Shown in pieces: positions 3,101 through 11,278 of a DNA stretch of 12,859 bases. Origin of the DNA: Nitrospinae bacterium RIFCSPLOWO2_12_FULL_45_22 (GTDB taxonomy: Bacteria > 2-12-FULL-45-22); assembly GCA_001803565.1 (NCBI GenBank), contig MHDQ01000125.1, forward strand, positions 2,473-15,331, read 5' to 3'. Made by a program: the position numbers and the translations under genes. The notes below the pieces were generated by a model, which had not been told where the DNA came from, made no database searches, and saw only the letters and a program-made list of their open reading frames with translations. Within the stretch, counting starts at the first letter, position 1. Every line of letters begins with the position of its first letter.

Positions 3101-3450
3101 ATGGCGGCTTCAGGGCCAGTGGCTAATCTATCCAGGACCTCTATCCGCTGGCCTATTGTTTCTTGCGAGACAGATGCTTCAGGGCCAGGGAAGAGATAGA
3201 GATTTTTAGAGTAGTTAGGGGATGAGCCAGAAGGGTTAAGGAAAAAATCTAAGTCCTGATAAAGGTCTTTTGCCTGGGCTTGATCCGGTACTATTATCAG
3301 CAGGTTACGCTTAGTTGTGGCAAATATTAAACCCAGGAAAAAGGCCTGGGTAGAGCCATGTAAATTACTCAGATGGATAACCCTTTTGCCATTATCAAGC
3401 TCCTGCCATAGAGGCTCCAAAGAAGATAGGTTAAGCGATTCCTTTTGCAT
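127..3450 (-). CDS. mfd: Mfd, transcription-repair coupling factor
   Basis: This cytoplasmic ATP-dependent DNA translocase displaces RNA polymerase stalled at lesions and recruits UvrA for nucleotide excision repair. The 1107-residue length is close to the roughly 1150 usual for the family. In order, it shows a UvrB-like N-terminal module (about 1-330; EERGEFSIRG near 168), the RNA-polymerase-interacting CarD-like domain (about 435-500; VHVDYGIGQYLGI), a superfamily 2 helicase core with Walker A GDVGYGKTE (about 588-596), DEEQ (689-692), TATPIPRT (715-722) and QLRGRVGR (858-865), and the C-terminal TRCF domain (about 955-1060). An in-frame TAA lies directly before the ATG at 3450, so no longer start is possible. 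The start overlaps the end of coaE by 20 bp, suggesting co-transcription and coupled translation. No recognisable Shine-Dalgarno lies at the ideal distance; AGAAAGGG is about 14 nt away. All helicase motifs look intact. Confidence 0.97.
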   Translation of the reverse strand: MQKESLNLSSLEPLWQELDNGKRVIHLSNLHGSTQAFFLGLIFATTKRNLLIIVPDQAQAKDLYQDLDFFLNPSGSSPNYSKNLYLFPGPEASVSQETIGQRIEVLDRLATGPEAAILIPVASLGSKVYPKNNLVAQTSHLNLGDCYSREELITLAITSGYQRTELVEERGEFSIRGCIVDIFPPAQTYPVRIEFNGDEIESLREFDPETQKSIRPIYQVKILPIKEFPDPSGAKDCLFDYLPANSLLIMIEPAMVKDKFTESLTEKGSNGLYLDPEEVRLYLDEYQTIELSSLDLAEENHGYGLTIQPIGYYRNRFSELAGQLRQWQRDYYRIFLVCLNKGQATRLKGLVEAYDIPSEILPRSPSVTMIASVVPAKPLPAPPYPVTITIGNLSAGFLLPDLKIAFLIEDEIFGVRKKRLLAKKIKKELPLSTFSTLQVNDYVVHVDYGIGQYLGITRLEAGGNIREFLELEYADGDKLYVPLDRLNLVQRYIGAGPVTPRLDKLGHNAWKNLKRKIKESLRHLAQDLLKLYAARQVSSGSAFSPDNHMHQEFDSMFEYEETPHQLQAIQDVKADMENPDPMDRLVCGDVGYGKTEVAMRAAFKAVMNNKQVAILVPTTILAQQHLQTFQRRFAPYPVNIEMLSRFRSRQEQARIIQGIKNGLVDIVIGTHRLLQKDIQFKDLGLLIIDEEQRFGVVHKERLKQFRKNIDVLTLTATPIPRTLYLSLAGIRNISIIETPPEDRLPIQTFIKHFSPGIIKEAIDKELARNGQVFFVHNRIESIRAMKKYLQKLVPQARIEIAHGQMPERELEKAMVSFLGEQFDILLSTSIIESGLDIPSVNTIIINRADRFGLADLYQLRGRVGRDRYQAYAYLLVPSESHLSQDARKRLQAIKELSHLGSGFQLASRDMEIRGTGNILGAQQSGHMAAIGFELYCRLLEETVKELKGEREGVEEVVEPEIIIPFQGYIPDDYISHSGQRLDIYKKLSDIDDIEELYCQKEELEDRYGLPPEPFINLFTFLELKILARKIRLERLEKKRDIITLTFSPRIVLIPHPRLPLDDGRNVPLEWVGENCAVIKASTPDDPGVFIKKTLQALDGYVTIRPEK

Positions 3451-4045
3451 TTAATTCATACCATGCCCTTTCTACTTGTTCCTGTAACTCTTCTATCGAA
3501 CCGTTATTCTTTATGATAAGGTCGGCATATTTAATCCGCTCTTCATTAGAAAGCTGAGTGGCGAGGCGCTTTTTGGCATCTTCTGGCGATAGGTTGCGAT
3601 CTCGTTGGAGACGCTGAATAGCTACTTCTTTATCCGCGACCACCACCCATACTTTATTAACCAGGAAGAGCCAATTGGCCTCTATCAAAATAGCCGCCTC
3701 CAGGAAGACATGTCCTTTATCCCCTCTCTTATCTCGCTGCACCGCAATATCTCTTTGGGTTTCCTCGACTATCCGGGGATGGGTGATCTGATTTAATTTA
3801 TTCAGGGCCTCTTTATCATTGAAGACAATGACTCCTAACTTAGCCCGATCCACGGTCTGGTCGGGCTTAAGGATAGCCGGGCCAAAGGTTGCTACTATAT
3901 CTCTCCAGGCATCCTTGTCCGGCAGATAGACCTGGTGGCCGATCAAGTCAGCATTAATGATATAGGCACCCAGGTCCGTCAATATTTTAGATACTAGAGT
4001 CTTGCCTGAAGCGATACCACCTGTTAGGCCAATCACCTCCATCAT
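3431..4045 (-). CDS. coaE: CoaE, dephospho-CoA kinase
   Basis: Catalyses the last step of coenzyme A synthesis: ATP-dependent phosphorylation of the 3'-hydroxyl of dephospho-CoA, in the cytoplasm. The 204-residue product has the usual size for this P-loop kinase. It shows Walker A GGIASGKT (residues 9-16), the NADLIGHQVY segment with the conserved Asp33, the THPRI motif around 88-92, the AILIEANW stretch (118-125) where the family usually has a PLLFE-type motif, and the Arg-rich LID region (QRLQRDR, about 144-150). The reading frame continues upstream to 4117, but the added residues resemble no CoaE. An AGGAG site (4056-4060) lies 10 nt before ATG 4045, so I place the start there; the adjacent ATG at 4042 is an equal alternative. 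It is the first gene of a two-gene unit with mfd. No clear promoter is visible in the short space upstream. Confidence 0.95.
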   Translation of the reverse strand: MMEVIGLTGGIASGKTLVSKILTDLGAYIINADLIGHQVYLPDKDAWRDIVATFGPAILKPDQTVDRAKLGVIVFNDKEALNKLNQITHPRIVEETQRDIAVQRDKRGDKGHVFLEAAILIEANWLFLVNKVWVVVADKEVAIQRLQRDRNLSPEDAKKRLATQLSNEERIKYADLIIKNNGSIEELQEQVERAWYELNAKGIA

Positions 4046-4427: not shown

Positions 4428-6362
4428 TCACTTTTCCAGGGTAAGGTGGTAATAAATTTTGGGTAATTCCTGGGGCAGTTGGCAAACATCCTTAATGACC
4501 ATATAATCGGGACCACCGCACATAGCCCTGAGATAGTCGTGGCCACAGGGGTCAACTGTTATACAAAAAGTCTTTAGCCCGGCCCTCTGTGATTCTTTGA
4601 GGGCTACCATAGTATCATGCAGAGCATATTCCCGGCTGGTACGGTCTTCACCATAATCGAAATCCTGGGGATAGCCGTCGCTTAGCAATAATAAGAGCTT
4701 GAGTTTAGCACATTGCCGGTTGAGCTTATAAGTCGCATGCCTGATAGCTGGGCCCATACGGGTACTGCGATGCGGTTTTATCCCCCCAATCCGTGCTTTG
4801 ATGGTCTGAGAATACTGCTCACAGAATTCTTTTATGTTAAAAAATTCTACCTTATCCCGGCCATAACCAGAAAAACCGAATATGGCATATTTATCTCCCA
4901 ACGAGTCCATAGCCTCCGCCATAAGGATCATAGCCTCTTTTTCTATATCAATAATCCGTTTCTGGCTATCAGGTACCCGCTCATCAGTGGAGGCGCTCAT
5001 ATCTAAAAGGAATATTGCCCCTACATCCCGCTCCACCTTTCTCCTTTCTAAATATATTTTTCCTGAGGGCGATTTACCAGATTTCTTATCTACCACATCT
5101 TCTATTAAGGCGTCCAGTTCTAATTCCTCACCAGTAAAGAGTCTTTTGATCTTTAAATATTTTTGTGGCCTCAGCCTCTGGAACTGCTTTCTAAAATCGG
5201 TGATAAGCAAAGAGTGTTGTGACAGGGTCTCTTCCACAAAAGTACTGGTGTCAGCCTCTGGGATATTTTCTGTAAGGCAACACCATTTAGGCCGATAATC
5301 ATGCCGTATATAATCCCACTCATCATAGTAATAATAATGGTTTAGGGCAATATTCTCTTTTGGTTTTTTCCGGTTCTCACAAAGAGTTTTGGTCTGGGCC
5401 TTTGCAACATTGTCCAACTGAGCCTTTGTCCTGAGTGATATGAGGGAGGATAGTTGATTAATAAATAGTCCCGAGCTATTAGGGAGAGCGCCCGATAGGA
5501 TTTCGCTCAGCTCAATTTTTATCCCCTTATCCAGTAGGTCTTTGAGATACTCCCAGGGTATTGGGTAGCTCAGACCTGGTATAGAGGGACTCTTTCGAGG
5601 CGCCTGGATTAAAGACCCAATATCAATGTCCTGGGGGGGATAAGAGTAGGAACTATCCTGGGTATAGTTTTTCTCCCAAGCAATAGGTATCGGTAAAGAA
5701 CCTTCTTGGTGTAAGTTAGTTTTATCCATTTCGCAGGTTGGGAGTTGGGATATGATAGGATAAAGGAACAGTGTCCCGAGAGCGGAATCATATCCTGTAG
5801 CATCTGGATCGGTTAATCGGCTAATTACTTCCCAAACCCATGGTTCCCATGGGACAGCATGGGGAGATGGATGGTTGCTGGTAGTGCTATTAGTATTAAA
5901 TAGTCTTTCCCAGATCATCGCTTCTATTTTTGCGGGCCAGGATTCTTTCCAGTTGCCCCCTTTTACCAGACGACTCTGACGGAATCTTTTTATATCCCTG
6001 GCCAGCCCTTGATATTCGCGCTGCAAACAGCTATCTACCCGGGCATCCTCTAGTATATAGAAAATACGGGTAGCTAAATCAGGCTCAGGAAACGAGAGGG
6101 AAAATTGGTCATGAGGGAAAGAAAAGGAATCATATAGGAAATATCCCAGTTGGTGGCTGGTATAAACCTTGTAGAGCCAAAAGTTATCACTCCAGTTGGC
6201 GAATTGGTGGATTTGTTCTGGCAGTTTAAGGGCTTCCGGGCAAGGGTGGGGATAGTTCTGGAATGTTTCTTTTGAAAGATTAATAGCAATATCGTCACCG
6301 GTAAGGGCTCTAATATAGAGCCGTAATATCAGACATATTTCTGAGAATGGAATATCAGACAT
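4428..6362 (-). CDS. NorD-like von Willebrand factor A domain protein
   Basis: A 644-residue protein of the NorD/CobT-type VWA family. In characterised systems, such proteins work with a MoxR-class AAA+ ATPase (NorQ, CbbQ) to insert metal or activate an enzyme such as nitric oxide reductase or Rubisco. The C-terminal third (about 445-640) is a complete VWA domain with a MIDAS metal site: DMSAS (454-458), the Thr of HRSTRMGP (534) and SDG (561-563). It is flanked by signatures I associate with NorD: GDKYAIFGFSGYGR, RMGPAIRHAT and LLLLSDGYPQDFDYG. The N-terminal part has an ILEDARVD segment (about 103-110) and a DEWDYIRHDYRPKWC segment (about 347-361). There is no signal peptide or clear membrane segment. 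An in-frame TAA upstream fixes the ATG at 6362, but its ribosome binding site is weak. No MoxR ATPase, nor gene or Rubisco gene lies in the window, so the target is unknown and I give no symbol. Confidence 0.88.
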   Translation of the reverse strand: MSDIPFSEICLILRLYIRALTGDDIAINLSKETFQNYPHPCPEALKLPEQIHQFANWSDNFWLYKVYTSHQLGYFLYDSFSFPHDQFSLSFPEPDLATRIFYILEDARVDSCLQREYQGLARDIKRFRQSRLVKGGNWKESWPAKIEAMIWERLFNTNSTTSNHPSPHAVPWEPWVWEVISRLTDPDATGYDSALGTLFLYPIISQLPTCEMDKTNLHQEGSLPIPIAWEKNYTQDSSYSYPPQDIDIGSLIQAPRKSPSIPGLSYPIPWEYLKDLLDKGIKIELSEILSGALPNSSGLFINQLSSLISLRTKAQLDNVAKAQTKTLCENRKKPKENIALNHYYYYDEWDYIRHDYRPKWCCLTENIPEADTSTFVEETLSQHSLLITDFRKQFQRLRPQKYLKIKRLFTGEELELDALIEDVVDKKSGKSPSGKIYLERRKVERDVGAIFLLDMSASTDERVPDSQKRIIDIEKEAMILMAEAMDSLGDKYAIFGFSGYGRDKVEFFNIKEFCEQYSQTIKARIGGIKPHRSTRMGPAIRHATYKLNRQCAKLKLLLLLSDGYPQDFDYGEDRTSREYALHDTMVALKESQRAGLKTFCITVDPCGHDYLRAMCGGPDYMVIKDVCQLPQELPKIYYHLTLEK

Positions 6363-6541: not shown

Positions 6542-7027
6542 TTGAGGAATAAGAAACCACTGGTCACCATAGAAGCAGTTCAGAAGGATTTGACCTCAAG
6601 GGAAGAATATCTAGAAGAGGTAGAAGGGATAGGGATATTTGGTTCCTTAGCAAGGAACGATTTTTCGGGGCAAAAGAGTGACATAGATATCTTTGTTATC
6701 CTGGAAAAGGCTACCTATTCTGATGATGAACTGTGGATACGCAGGATTAAAGAACTGCTCGATAAATATGAAAGAGACATAACTGTGCTGGTATATGATC
6801 TGCCTAGCTTGAAAAAGGTTTGTAATTGGTATGTGCTCGAACTAGCTTCTGATAGTGTGTTGGTCTATGATAAAGGAAAGGTCAGATCCTATTTCAATAA
6901 GATCATCAAGGCCGCCGAAAAGGCTGGTTTAGTCAGGACAGTTTATGACAGACATCCTATTTGGGGATTAAGCAGAGCAGCGATACCCGGTGAAGTTATT
7001 CGGGTTGAGGTTACGGATGACCAATAA
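6542..7027 (+). CDS. MNT-type nucleotidyltransferase, partner of the downstream HEPN protein
   Basis: A 161-residue minimal nucleotidyltransferase of the polymerase-beta fold. It carries the family signature GSLAR (34-38) followed by SDIDIFV, giving metal-binding aspartates D47 and D49, with a likely third Asp in YERDITVLV (D79). All three catalytic acidic positions appear intact. In characterised MntA/HepT modules, the MNT protein is the antitoxin and transfers AMP to a Tyr of the HEPN partner; whether that applies here is inference. The C-terminal stretch after about residue 120 (AAEKAGLVRTVYDRHPIWGLS) is longer than in the smallest MNT proteins. Translation starts at TTG behind a very strong Shine-Dalgarno. 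The gene overlaps the HEPN gene by 11 bp, a sign of coupled translation. It is divergent from the VWA gene. Confidence 0.88.
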   Translation: MRNKKPLVTIEAVQKDLTSREEYLEEVEGIGIFGSLARNDFSGQKSDIDIFVILEKATYSDDELWIRRIKELLDKYERDITVLVYDLPSLKKVCNWYVLELASDSVLVYDKGKVRSYFNKIIKAAEKAGLVRTVYDRHPIWGLSRAAIPGEVIRVEVTDDQ

Positions 7028-7475
7028 AGAAGAAATAGAACGCTGGTTATTGGATGCTGAGGATACCTTAAAGACTGCGGAGGCAGATCATAAAGGAGGT
7101 TTAATCAGGGCAACGGTTCAGAATGCTCAACTATGTATTGAATTTTCTGCCAAAGCTATTATCTCATGTTTCGAAACTCCGGAGTGGGAACACGACCCCG
7201 GTAAACAGTTGAAAAGAATAAATGAGAAAAACAGGGAAATAATTGCCAAGAAAATAGGCCCTGATATGATAAAGCAGATAGATTTACTAGCACAAAAATC
7301 ATCTGACGTGGCTCTATGGCATGGGTGGTCAACTTATGGCAGGCGGGAATGCGATGGTAGTTGGTTACCCGCGGCTAAAGTTTGTACAAAAGATACTGCC
7401 GAGACGATGCTTCCAATAGCAGAACTATCCTTTAAAACCGCCAATGATTTTTATAATGGGTGGTTTAGTAAATAG
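7017..7475 (+). CDS. HEPN domain protein, possible toxin-like partner of the MNT protein
   Basis: A 152-residue, mostly helical protein resembling the HEPN domain. The N-terminal segment IERWLLDAEDTLKTAEAD, the middle QNAQLCIEFSAKAII and the EHDPGKQLKRI segment (about 58-68) fit the classic pattern of paired helices, a conserved Glu/Lys helix and an HD before the third helix. The start is ATG 7017, preceded by TTGAGG at 6-nt spacing; an earlier ATG at 6990 in the same frame is less well placed. The RX4-6H ribonuclease motif of toxic HEPN proteins is not present: none of the His residues (25, 59, 102) has an Arg 5-7 positions before it. The protein may therefore be a non-catalytic HEPN, for instance a substrate- or nucleotide-binding partner, or use other residues. 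Co-translation with the MNT gene is strongly suggested by the overlap. Confidence 0.82.
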   Translation: MTNKEEIERWLLDAEDTLKTAEADHKGGLIRATVQNAQLCIEFSAKAIISCFETPEWEHDPGKQLKRINEKNREIIAKKIGPDMIKQIDLLAQKSSDVALWHGWSTYGRRECDGSWLPAAKVCTKDTAETMLPIAELSFKTANDFYNGWFSK

Positions 7476-7752: not shown

Positions 7753-7883
7753 TAATTAGTTCCCACTGAAAAAATCTTTGCAAAGCAAGCTTTGCCACTA
7801 CCTATTCTATGATAGCGCTCTTTTGATAATACCTGTAGTGGTCGAGCTTGCTCGACATCTCATTTTTCAGTGGCACCTAATTA
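7753..7883. mobile_element. MITE-like palindromic element just before the FecR-TPR-barrel gene
   Basis: The 131-bp element has terminal inverted repeats: TAATTAGTTCCCACTGAAAA... from 7753 to 7775, complementary to 7862-7883 with two mismatches and one extra A. Inside each end sits a small hairpin: GCAAAG-CAAG-CTTTGC (7780-7795) and GTCGAG-CTTG-CTCGAC (7841-7856). These are inverted copies of each other whose stems differ by compensating changes. CCACTAC (7795-7801) also pairs with GTAGTGG (7835-7841). The central 33 nt encode nothing. CACCTAATTA at 7749-7758 and 7874-7883 could be read instead as a duplicated target site, but TAATTA is itself palindromic, so the boundaries are uncertain. No transposase is present, so any movement would need one in trans. 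Confidence 0.7.
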
Positions 7884-7906
7884 ACGGAAAAAAGATAGAG
7901 TCTCCT

Positions 7907-10900
7907 ATGCCCTTTCCTATAAAAGTGCGACCCAATAGCATTTGTAGGCTATTTATACTGACCCTTCTTTCTACCGGCCTATTCCCAGCTCAAGAGATCA
8001 TGGCAGTTAGGCAACCGGCTGAGGTTGTCTCAGTTCGGCCTGCTACTTTTCGCTCCCTCAAGCCAGACATCTGGAACAATATAAACCCCGGGGATAGAGT
8101 TACGGAGGGTAGTTTTATCAAGACTGATCCCTATGGCCGTCTCTCCCTCCTGCTTCCCAACCAGATGCTTCTCAAAGTAGGAGGCAATACCCTATTCGCT
8201 TACGGGGAAGAGGCAGATACGGGGGCTAGCTTGCTCCGTCTACGTAAAGGGAAGCTCTGGATGCGGAGCGAGAAAATGCCCAGGGGTTTTAGAGTGCATA
8301 CCCCCACAGCTACTACCGCTATCCGGGGGACGGAATGGTTTATGGAGGTAGCTGAAGATGGGACAACCTCTGTGGGAGTTCTGGATGGATCGGTGGTAGT
8401 AGAGAATCCTTTGGGCAAGGTTATACTTGAGCCCCGGGAGCTGGCCCTGGTACTACCTGGAAAACCGCCTCAGAAAATGGTTTATCTCACCCCCACGGAT
8501 GCCGTAAACTGGACACTGCGCTACCGTGGTATATGGTCTGAGTCTGGCCTTGCCCGTTCTACTGGTACTCTTTCCTCTGGTATCCGTGCTGCGATTGAGG
8601 CATATCACCGGAACAACTATAAAAAGGCATTCGAGATAGTCCGGTCATTAGAGAAGAGTCAGGGTAATAAGGCAGAATGGGCTGCTATAGTAGGATTTTT
8701 GAAGATGGTCTCGGGCGACCACCGGGGTGCTAGAGAGGCTTTTGGGAGGGCCAGGAGCCTTGCTCCCGATTGGGCCCTCCCAGTCTCTCACCTGGCATTG
8801 ATGGATCTGGTGGAGAACCAGACGGCCCAGGCCCTCAAACGAGCCCGTGAGGCAGTAAAGATTGAGCCAAAATCCCCCACAGCCCATGTAGTGTTAGCTT
8901 ATGCCCTGAAGGGGAGGTTGAAGATGGAAGAAGCTTATCGTGCAAGCCAGGAGGCTCTCCAGCTAGACCCCGGCTTTACCGAAGGAATCCTTGTTGCGGC
9001 CCGGCTTGCCCTGGAATTGGAAAGATATAAAGAGACCCGCACCCTTCTGGAGTCAATTAAAAAAGAATCATCGGCTGAAGCAATTTCTGAAACATTACTG
9101 GGATATCTTTCCTTACGGGAGGGCAAGAATTTTGAGGCATTAAGTCATTTCGAAAGGGCCATTACTCTTGACCGGGAATGGGCAGAACCCATGCTCGGCT
9201 CAGGCATAAGTCTATTTCGGCTGGGAAGAGAAAAAGAAGGACAGAACTCGGTAATAAAGGCCACTCTGATGGAACCCCAGGTCTCCTTATATCAGGCCTA
9301 CCTGGCCAAATCCTACTTTGAACTCAAGCGATTCCCTGAGGCAAAACAGTCTATTGAGCGAGCTAAACGGCTTGATCCCAAAGACCCCACACCTTACCTT
9401 TACGAGGCTATCTTTCGCTTTGACCAGCACGAACCGATCCGGGCCCTTGCTGCGATCGAAAAGGCTTTTCGGCTCAATGGGAACAGGGCGGTCTTTCGCT
9501 CCAGATACCTCCTTGATCAAGACCAGGCAGTACTGATGGCCAATATTGCGCAAATCTATTCCCGGGTTGGTTTCCACCGTAAATCGGTCCAGCAGGCTTA
9601 TGATGCCCTACTATTCGATCCGACAAATGAGGGCGCCCACCGCCGACTCTATTTTGCGCTACTATTTGACCCGAGTTATTATGACCAGGGCGCTGCTTCA
9701 GAGAAGCTTCTCACCAAACTCTTGGTTCCTACCACACGTTCTGCTGTAATCTTTGATGAGGACCAACTGAGCCCTTATACCCATATGTTCGATAGATCCG
9801 GAGCAGATAAAACCATTGTATCTAACCGATTTCAACAGAGGGATAACGACACCAGGGCAATCGTACAATCAGGCACAGCAGATTTTGCCGGTAAAACCAA
9901 AGGCCCTTTTGCCTATCATGTTCAAGGGTTCCTGGACCAGGACAAATTTCAGTCGAGTTTGGCCCCCGGCCCCCTCAAATCGGCTACGGACACAGAAACC
10001 CTCGTGGGGAGCTCCTTTTTCAAGTGGCGTCCTAGACCCGGTCTGGACTTGTTCCTTGAAGCTAATCGTAATAAGTCTGATACTTTTTCCGACTCTCTAT
10101 ACTTCTTTAACCTGCGCCCTTTTACCCTGAGTGACAACGAGCAAAATTCAGATGTTACTAACCTTGATGCTGGTCTACACGGGGCCTTTGGTGCCGGGAA
10201 TCATTTATTTACTCACTTTTCTTATTACAGGCTTTCGGCTGATATGAATACGGACACTACTATTTATCAACCTAATATGAAAACTGTCTTAGATGGGGAA
10301 ACTGACGATGAACAAATTATATTCCATACCGCCTATTGGAAAAAATGGCAAGATCATTTTTTCCAGGTCGGTGGAAGGCATTTTGAAGGGGATCTGGTTA
10401 ATAGTAGTCTCTTTTCATCAGGGCTGTTCAGAAATTCATTCAAGGAGAAACACAAAAGCGAATTTGATTCTATCTATCTTTATCACCAATGGACTGCTAA
10501 CCCAGCAGTGGTACTGATCGGAGGTGTCGCAGCCGATTACCACAGGTTTAAGGATGAAAAAGGAAGAGGATTGTCTGGATGGGACCTGAATCCTTCCTTT
10601 GGCTTTCAATGGAAATTGACTTCTCTTTGGTCTCTCAGGGCGGCGTATATAAGAACCACGCAGGGAGACAGGTCAGAGCGGCTACAACCCTCCCTTATTG
10701 CCCGGTTCCCTCTCTTACGGGTGAATCAGGTTGATCTTTTTACTCCAGAACAGTTACTGAACCTGGAGCGGGATACCATTGCCTTTGGACTCGACCGAAC
10801 AAGTCTATCAGAGAAACATTTTTGGGGCATTGAATTAGCCCATGATGTTGCCAATGCTTACCAGAGAGACCCGGCTCGTATAGGTGGGCGACTAAAAACG

Positions 10901-11278
10901 GATAACAATACTCTAAGCCTTTTTTTATTTCTCGAGAGCTGCTGGACAGATAGGTTCTCAAGCAATATTACTTACCGGTTTGCTAGAACTGACCTTCCCG
11001 GAGAGTATGATGAGAACAGAATCGGGACACAGCTATATTATTTTTTGCCCGCTGGCCTCAGGTTAAACCTTAATATTGAATATATTGATATTAATCCTGA
11101 GAAAAATGAGCCCCTTGTTGCGGAAGCCGGTTCGTGGAAGTTTCAGCCTAGACTCAGCTATCAATTCTTCCGGAACCGGATCACCATCTCTCTCAATGGA
11201 CTTTATGAAGCAAGAGATATGAGTCATGATCACAAGGAAACGAAAAGATTTCAATTATTATTTTCCTGGAAATTCTGA
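7907..11278 (+). CDS. FecR domain - TPR - outer-membrane beta-barrel fusion protein
   Basis: A 1123-residue exported protein combining three modules; I do not recognise a named family. Residues 1-32 look like a signal peptide: basic residues K7, R9 and R15, then the hydrophobic run LFILTLLSTGLFPA. Residues about 40-190 form a FecR domain (DGRL-like YGRLSLLLP, RLRKGKLWMR, then TPTATTAIRGTEW at 132-144), which in known proteins is periplasmic and often linked to polysaccharide or signal binding. Residues about 222-607 hold roughly eight to nine TPR units with the usual 34-residue rhythm ending in DP or EP. Residues about 650-1123 alternate polar and hydrophobic/aromatic residues, as in an antiparallel beta-barrel, and end FSWKF with a terminal Phe, the outer-membrane assembly signal. 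The frame is open back to a TTG at 7778, but that lies in the MITE-like element; ATG 7907 places the signal peptide correctly, though its Shine-Dalgarno is weak. It is a single gene with no co-directional neighbour. Confidence 0.85.
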   Translation: MPFPIKVRPNSICRLFILTLLSTGLFPAQEIMAVRQPAEVVSVRPATFRSLKPDIWNNINPGDRVTEGSFIKTDPYGRLSLLLPNQMLLKVGGNTLFAYGEEADTGASLLRLRKGKLWMRSEKMPRGFRVHTPTATTAIRGTEWFMEVAEDGTTSVGVLDGSVVVENPLGKVILEPRELALVLPGKPPQKMVYLTPTDAVNWTLRYRGIWSESGLARSTGTLSSGIRAAIEAYHRNNYKKAFEIVRSLEKSQGNKAEWAAIVGFLKMVSGDHRGAREAFGRARSLAPDWALPVSHLALMDLVENQTAQALKRAREAVKIEPKSPTAHVVLAYALKGRLKMEEAYRASQEALQLDPGFTEGILVAARLALELERYKETRTLLESIKKESSAEAISETLLGYLSLREGKNFEALSHFERAITLDREWAEPMLGSGISLFRLGREKEGQNSVIKATLMEPQVSLYQAYLAKSYFELKRFPEAKQSIERAKRLDPKDPTPYLYEAIFRFDQHEPIRALAAIEKAFRLNGNRAVFRSRYLLDQDQAVLMANIAQIYSRVGFHRKSVQQAYDALLFDPTNEGAHRRLYFALLFDPSYYDQGAASEKLLTKLLVPTTRSAVIFDEDQLSPYTHMFDRSGADKTIVSNRFQQRDNDTRAIVQSGTADFAGKTKGPFAYHVQGFLDQDKFQSSLAPGPLKSATDTETLVGSSFFKWRPRPGLDLFLEANRNKSDTFSDSLYFFNLRPFTLSDNEQNSDVTNLDAGLHGAFGAGNHLFTHFSYYRLSADMNTDTTIYQPNMKTVLDGETDDEQIIFHTAYWKKWQDHFFQVGGRHFEGDLVNSSLFSSGLFRNSFKEKHKSEFDSIYLYHQWTANPAVVLIGGVAADYHRFKDEKGRGLSGWDLNPSFGFQWKLTSLWSLRAAYIRTTQGDRSERLQPSLIARFPLLRVNQVDLFTPEQLLNLERDTIAFGLDRTSLSEKHFWGIELAHDVANAYQRDPARIGGRLKTDNNTLSLFLFLESCWTDRFSSNITYRFARTDLPGEYDENRIGTQLYYFLPAGLRLNLNIEYIDINPEKNEPLVAEAGSWKFQPRLSYQFFRNRITISLNGLYEARDMSHDHKETKRFQLLFSWKF

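Follow-up and report, generated by a model that had tools for sequence, protein, structure and literature searches.

The window analysed here (the whole stretch of 12,859 nucleotides from Nitrospinae bacterium RIFCSPLOWO2_12_FULL_45_22) holds one intact open reading frame of 1123 aa on the forward strand (7907–11278; ATG at 7907, stop at 11278), identified from the ORF call, Pfam and homologues as a FecR-TPR-barrel protein and referred to below as P0001. Upstream of it lie the gene for a VWA-domain protein (644 aa, 4428–6362; no NCBIfam match) and overlapping MNT nucleotidyltransferase and HEPN genes (6542–7475), likely a toxin-antitoxin pair, while downstream, on the other strand, there are a 169-aa ORF that matches nothing clearly in Pfam and an APH-fold kinase. 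An element of 131–132 bp with imperfect inverted ends (TAATTAGTTCCCACTGAAAAA) occupies 7753–7884, 22 bp upstream of the P0001 ATG, and gave 51 matches in the source genome, about a dozen of them near full-length (75–94% identity); it is a MITE-like repeat and may affect the P0001 promoter. Rfam returned no match in the window. A first, sequence-only reading had reported neither a sigma factor nor a glycosyltransferase nearby, and rightly so: no glycosyltransferase was seen in the window, no sigma factor among the window ORFs examined, and no obvious partner.

The chain starts with a likely Sec signal peptide (residues 1–33; 7907–8005), read by eye from its basic start and hydrophobic LFILTLLSTGLF stretch, inside which the AlphaFold2 model places a helix of low confidence (residues 13–22). 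A FecR domain follows (residues 71–163; 8117–8395; PF04773, 52 bits against a cut-off of 24), then a TPR solenoid (residues 220–606; 8564–9724) in which several TPR families exceed their Pfam cut-offs. The family signature NRAVFRSRYLLDQDQ (residues 526–540; 9482–9526; alignment of 42 sequences) falls between TPR hairpins 9 and 10. The C-terminal region (residues 632–1122; 9800–11272) is, with good confidence, a predicted 22-stranded barrel of the TonB-dependent-transporter type with no plug, as judged from the models, structure matches and a leave-out profile; Pfam matches TonB_dep_Rec_b-barrel (PF00593) at residues 694–918 with 30.3 bits (cut-off 27) and lists no Plug domain for P0001. An identity as a FecR anti-sigma factor was rejected, as by sequence a likely signal peptide leads into FecR at the N terminus, in place of a cytoplasmic sigma-binding part, and the window ORFs examined include no sigma factor.

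AlphaFold2, run with an alignment of 42 sequences (P0001 and 41 relatives), gave a whole-chain model with a mean pLDDT of 83.5 and a pTM of 0.81, comprising a beta domain (38–192), 22 helices forming 11 hairpins (220–606) and 22 strands (632–1122). Pfam and the model agree with the sequence-only reading that a FecR domain, a TPR solenoid and an outer-membrane barrel are joined in one polypeptide; its count of eight to nine TPR units proved slightly low against the 11 helical hairpins modelled. The closed barrel that it had expected from structure prediction was supported, with 22 strands both in the whole chain and when the barrel was modelled by itself, and with closure deduced from the likeness to the closed 22-stranded barrels among the structure matches. 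All 50 PDB matches listed for the barrel were TonB-dependent transporters, headed by PirA (Z 21.3, rmsd 2.8, 388 residues aligned), with FecA (1kmp) at Z 19.4. On these models (22 strands in both, Z about 20) the barrel is predicted to be of the TonB-receptor type and not of the PgaA/BcsC type. It departs from that type in lacking the N-terminal plug inside the barrel, since the stretch between the final TPR helix and the start of the first barrel strand is just 25 residues long.

Relatives were not found by conventional means: tblastn with the whole of P0001 or its barrel against the source phylum (2 genomes) and 386 diverse genomes returned none, tblastn against plasmids with the P0001 barrel or one alphaproteobacterial member found nothing, and six linker peptides scanned against genome contigs gave no relative of P0001. 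We attribute the tblastn blanks to the weakness of a single-sequence search for such a barrel. P0001 does contain RAV(F/Y)RSRxLLDxD, a motif of proteobacterial relatives, and a degenerate DNA pattern for this motif (with a chance rate, by estimated information content, of about 1 per 257 billion bases) was used to gather relatives. It matched at least 117 stretches, with the motif in frame in at least 110 ORFs from seven named phyla; the sources include Pseudomonadota, Thermodesulfobacteriota, Myxococcota, Nitrospirota, Acidobacteriota, Verrucomicrobiota and Rokubacteria. Among the matches listed, 56 ORFs were full-length; BLASTP aligned every one of them to P0001, in most cases across all three modules (FecR, TPR, barrel). 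The nearest relative among them, L066 (from ‘Deltaproteobacteria’ YD0425bin50), is 36% identical over 1131 columns, and most other full-length relatives show 23–33% identity. The L066 locus also encodes, at 1142–2896, a protein of 584 aa in which a likely signal peptide and, at the C-terminal end, a transmembrane stretch were recognised by eye.

In the aligned set of 42, FecR was found in all sequences and TPR_11 in 40, while the TonB barrel model was reached at E 1e-3 by 21; no single Pfam or NCBIfam model spans the whole chain of these relatives. Eleven residues are invariant (N524, R527, A528, V529, R531, S532, R533, L535, L536, D537 and D539), most of those in the signature having been fixed already by the DNA pattern used to collect the sequences. 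Profiles built from 40 relatives, with P0001 and L066 removed, matched P0001 over FecR (residues 38–200, 102 bits), the linker (residues 495–632, 108 bits) and the barrel (84 bits, where the top of 900 shuffled controls reached 9.5 bits). The barrel profile also gave up to 61 bits on ordinary-looking TonB-receptor-sized ORFs in other genomes, so the barrel alone indicates superfamily kinship only. It is the FecR domain near the N terminus, the linker with the (N)RAV(F/Y)RSRxLLDxD signature in the last part of the TPR region, and the homologous C-terminal barrel, in the same order, that by sequence comparison show P0001 to belong to the family. In a quick tree, whose details are unsure given the long branches, P0001 grouped with L066 as a long-branched subgroup of its own, and both lack the LEPTQVAGFNQFFDD stretch present in most relatives; this subgroup has two members among the matches listed. 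P0001 is a divergent member of a large and widespread family of outer-membrane proteins, each a single chain and most of them unnamed, and the joining of FecR to a plugless TonB-type barrel is a trait of the whole family, not of P0001 alone.

Tabulation of the neighbours of these three-module homologues, a check that the sequence-only reading had proposed, identified a CHASE2 cyclase as the usual neighbour. The family is stably linked to such cyclases. Among upstream ORFs scanned with Pfam, 37 of 61 carried Guanylate_cyc and 30 of 61 CHASE2; downstream, each domain was found in 7 of 46. An HMM made from the neighbouring cyclases, applied only to loci whose two flanks each extend for 800 bp or more (n=39), found a class III cyclase no more than 1500 bp away at 32 of the 39 loci among the matches listed, mostly upstream and on the same strand, and Pfam confirmed CHASE2 and Guanylate_cyc for many of the adjacent cyclases. 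The claim that the protein has no partner genes thus holds at the P0001 locus, on whose contig no CHASE2 or class III cyclase was found, but not for the family. An adjacent cyclase was missing at 7 of the 39 loci among the matches listed and none adjoins L066; the cyclase neighbour is usual but not universal, and is therefore not a condition of family membership.

The source genome (3.67 Mb, 85% complete) contains exactly one CHASE2 cyclase, of 742 aa, near the end of contig C35. On the same contig (L131, 254–5818), a gene set for a ParA/Mrp-like ATPase and a UbiD-like decarboxylase (names by eye) occurs twice ahead of the cyclase region. Elsewhere in this genome, on contig C196 (L133, 1012–3682), a separate 302-aa FecR-domain protein lies beside a TPR protein of 525 aa whose C-terminal half is rich in strands; this may be the same set of modules divided between two chains. 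The L066 genome has the same arrangement as that of P0001, with one unlinked CHASE2 gene, and CHASE2 was found elsewhere in all five genomes of five cyclase-less loci. CHASE2 occurs in 173 of the 336 sampled genomes, so its presence in the source genome is weak evidence of a pairing; co-occurrence with the family is similarly to be read against a full barrel match in only three genomes and CHASE2 in half of all. We infer that P0001 works with the unlinked cyclase on contig C35.

Only one relative has been studied, NsrA of Sinorhizobium meliloti. Two papers report it as an outer-membrane receptor required to perceive plant signals, and as needed for signalling by cyclases of the inner membrane, namely CyaK for signal 1 and CyaD1/D2 for signal 1' (PMC7529298, PMC13001267). 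NsrA was reached through its cyclase, by reading pSymB at cyaK: smb20775 is a 1219-aa ORF with FecR at 85–179 and TPRs, directly upstream of cyaK (CHASE2 and Guanylate_cyc) and ending where cyaK starts. NsrA-like genes paired with a cyclase in the same arrangement were found on Methylocystis and Rhizobium plasmids. In Rhizobium sp. BG4 (L144) the pair has beside it a divergently oriented gene (3349–3888) that carries the annotation ‘Pycsar system effector family protein’. Like P0001, NsrA is a single chain, of comparable length, that combines FecR, a TPR solenoid and an outer-membrane barrel, and the homology runs end to end at the profile level (family profile against NsrA: 1032 columns, E 2e-49; against the NsrA barrels alone, E 3e-22). 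Unlike NsrA, P0001 belongs to a separate long-branched subgroup and lies beside no cyclase. Compared directly, the two proteins match only in FecR (31%, 187 columns, E 2e-21) and the TPRs; a profile of NsrA barrels alone does not find P0001 (7 bits). NsrA has no clear copy of (N)RAV(F/Y)RSRxLLDxD, which therefore marks the larger branch of the family, and in the quick tree the NsrA group forms a distant branch, with P0001 not grouped with the NsrA orthologues proper. The outcome that the sequence-only reading had named as counting against it, a large known family with an assigned function and an end-to-end match, was thus largely found, but a function is assigned to only one branch, that of NsrA, the sole member for which a receptor role feeding a cyclase has been published.

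Since the family is usually found beside a cyclase and its studied relative is a surface receptor, P0001 is most likely a receptor rather than a secretion pore. On balance we consider it probable that P0001, as a member of the family that contains NsrA, acts as a signal receptor in the outer membrane and that its periplasmic FecR-TPR arm signals to an inner-membrane CHASE2 cyclase. The 22-stranded barrel would sit in the outer membrane with ligand-binding loops outside, and the TPR solenoid with the N-terminal FecR domain would form a long arm through the periplasm. An external ligand, perhaps a macromolecule, would bind the barrel and bring about a change in the arm, which would then present FecR to the periplasmic CHASE2 domain of the class III cyclase, raising cAMP or cGMP. 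Such a scheme would amount to FecA-FecR signalling fused in one chain, with the cyclase replacing the sigma factor. NsrA, which is reported to serve CyaD1/D2 as well, sets a precedent for a receptor that acts with additional cyclases.

A rather unlikely variant, yet the strongest of the alternatives, is that P0001 is the same kind of receptor but that the P0001/L066 subgroup has left the CHASE2 cyclase and signals via another unlinked inner-membrane protein. Neither known member has an adjacent cyclase, the subgroup is divergent in the tree, and L066 is followed, 33 bp downstream, by a different co-directional gene encoding 584 aa with no Pfam match above cut-off; however, this neighbour has no counterpart in the genome of P0001 (best E 0.1), a CHASE2 gene is still present in both genomes, and the subgroup comprises only two members among the matches listed. 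The type and strand number of the barrel would also suit an uptake protein resembling TonB-dependent transporters, which lost its plug and whose periplasmic arm docks a binding protein. We regard this as improbable, given the missing plug (the gap is of 25 residues, and Pfam lists no Plug) and the neighbours of the relatives, among which there is no transporter gene pattern and the steady member is the cyclase. Marginally less probable still is a role in export, with P0001 as a porin for a polysaccharide or secreted protein in the manner of PgaA or BcsC, for although TPR solenoid and outer-membrane barrel stand in that order in a single chain and the PgaA model TIGR03939 gives a weak, TPR-driven match (29.6 bits), that match is confined to the TPRs and far under the cut-off of 366.65 bits, the cellulose-synthase domain BCSC_C is not matched in Pfam, the barrel resembles TonB-dependent transporters, and no synthase or glycosyltransferase was seen in the window or among the listed neighbour families of relatives. 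An identity as a polysaccharide exporter was rejected on the two model results and the TonB-type barrel, and the suggestion of a self-contained secretion or attachment device is not supported, in view of that barrel, the unmatched PgaA and BcsC models and NsrA being a signal receptor.

A wider proposal, one that we find quite conceivable though short of probable, is a widespread two-membrane relay in which CHASE2 reads the FecR-TPR arm of a plugless TonB-type receptor and not a small molecule, with the FecA-FecR logic united in a single chain whose output is cAMP or cGMP. P0001 would then be an unlinked, divergent version from a little-known phylum. What CHASE2 domains recognise has been reported as not known (PMC5192318), and the tight linkage of the family to CHASE2 across several phyla, taken with what is published on the NsrA-CyaK pathway, suggests as a general answer that CHASE2 reads an outer-membrane receptor. 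If true, surface signalling to cAMP would extend well beyond nodulating rhizobia and be common among environmental bacteria; that CHASE2 perhaps reads an outer-membrane protein is the wider, testable point.

Among known systems, the union of TPRs and a barrel in one chain is not unusual, PgaA and BcsC each carrying both; the sequence-only reading was mistaken in assigning the TPR scaffold and the pore of poly-N-acetylglucosamine export to different proteins, PgaA being one chain. PgaA and BcsC share the solenoid and barrel with P0001 but differ in having no FecR domain and a 16-stranded barrel, and P0001 falls under their family cut-offs. The FecA-FecR system (a TonB-dependent receptor and a FecR anti-sigma factor) has in common with P0001 a FecA-type barrel and a FecR domain; P0001, in contrast, is a single polypeptide with TPRs between the two, no plug and no sigma factor in the window, and its output enzyme is most likely a cyclase. 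In the BiofilmReg operon a LysM-FecR protein occurs with a CHASE2 histidine kinase (PMC5192318), so that a FecR domain is paired with a CHASE2 sensor as in the P0001 family, but with no barrel and with a kinase instead of a cyclase. In Campylobacterota, a FecR-domain outer-membrane protein, a TPR protein and a phosphodiesterase cluster with a CHASE2 cyclase (PMC9239204); the same modules are thus tied to the same kind of cyclase as in the P0001 family, the FecR and TPR proteins being described there as separate whereas P0001 carries both in one chain.
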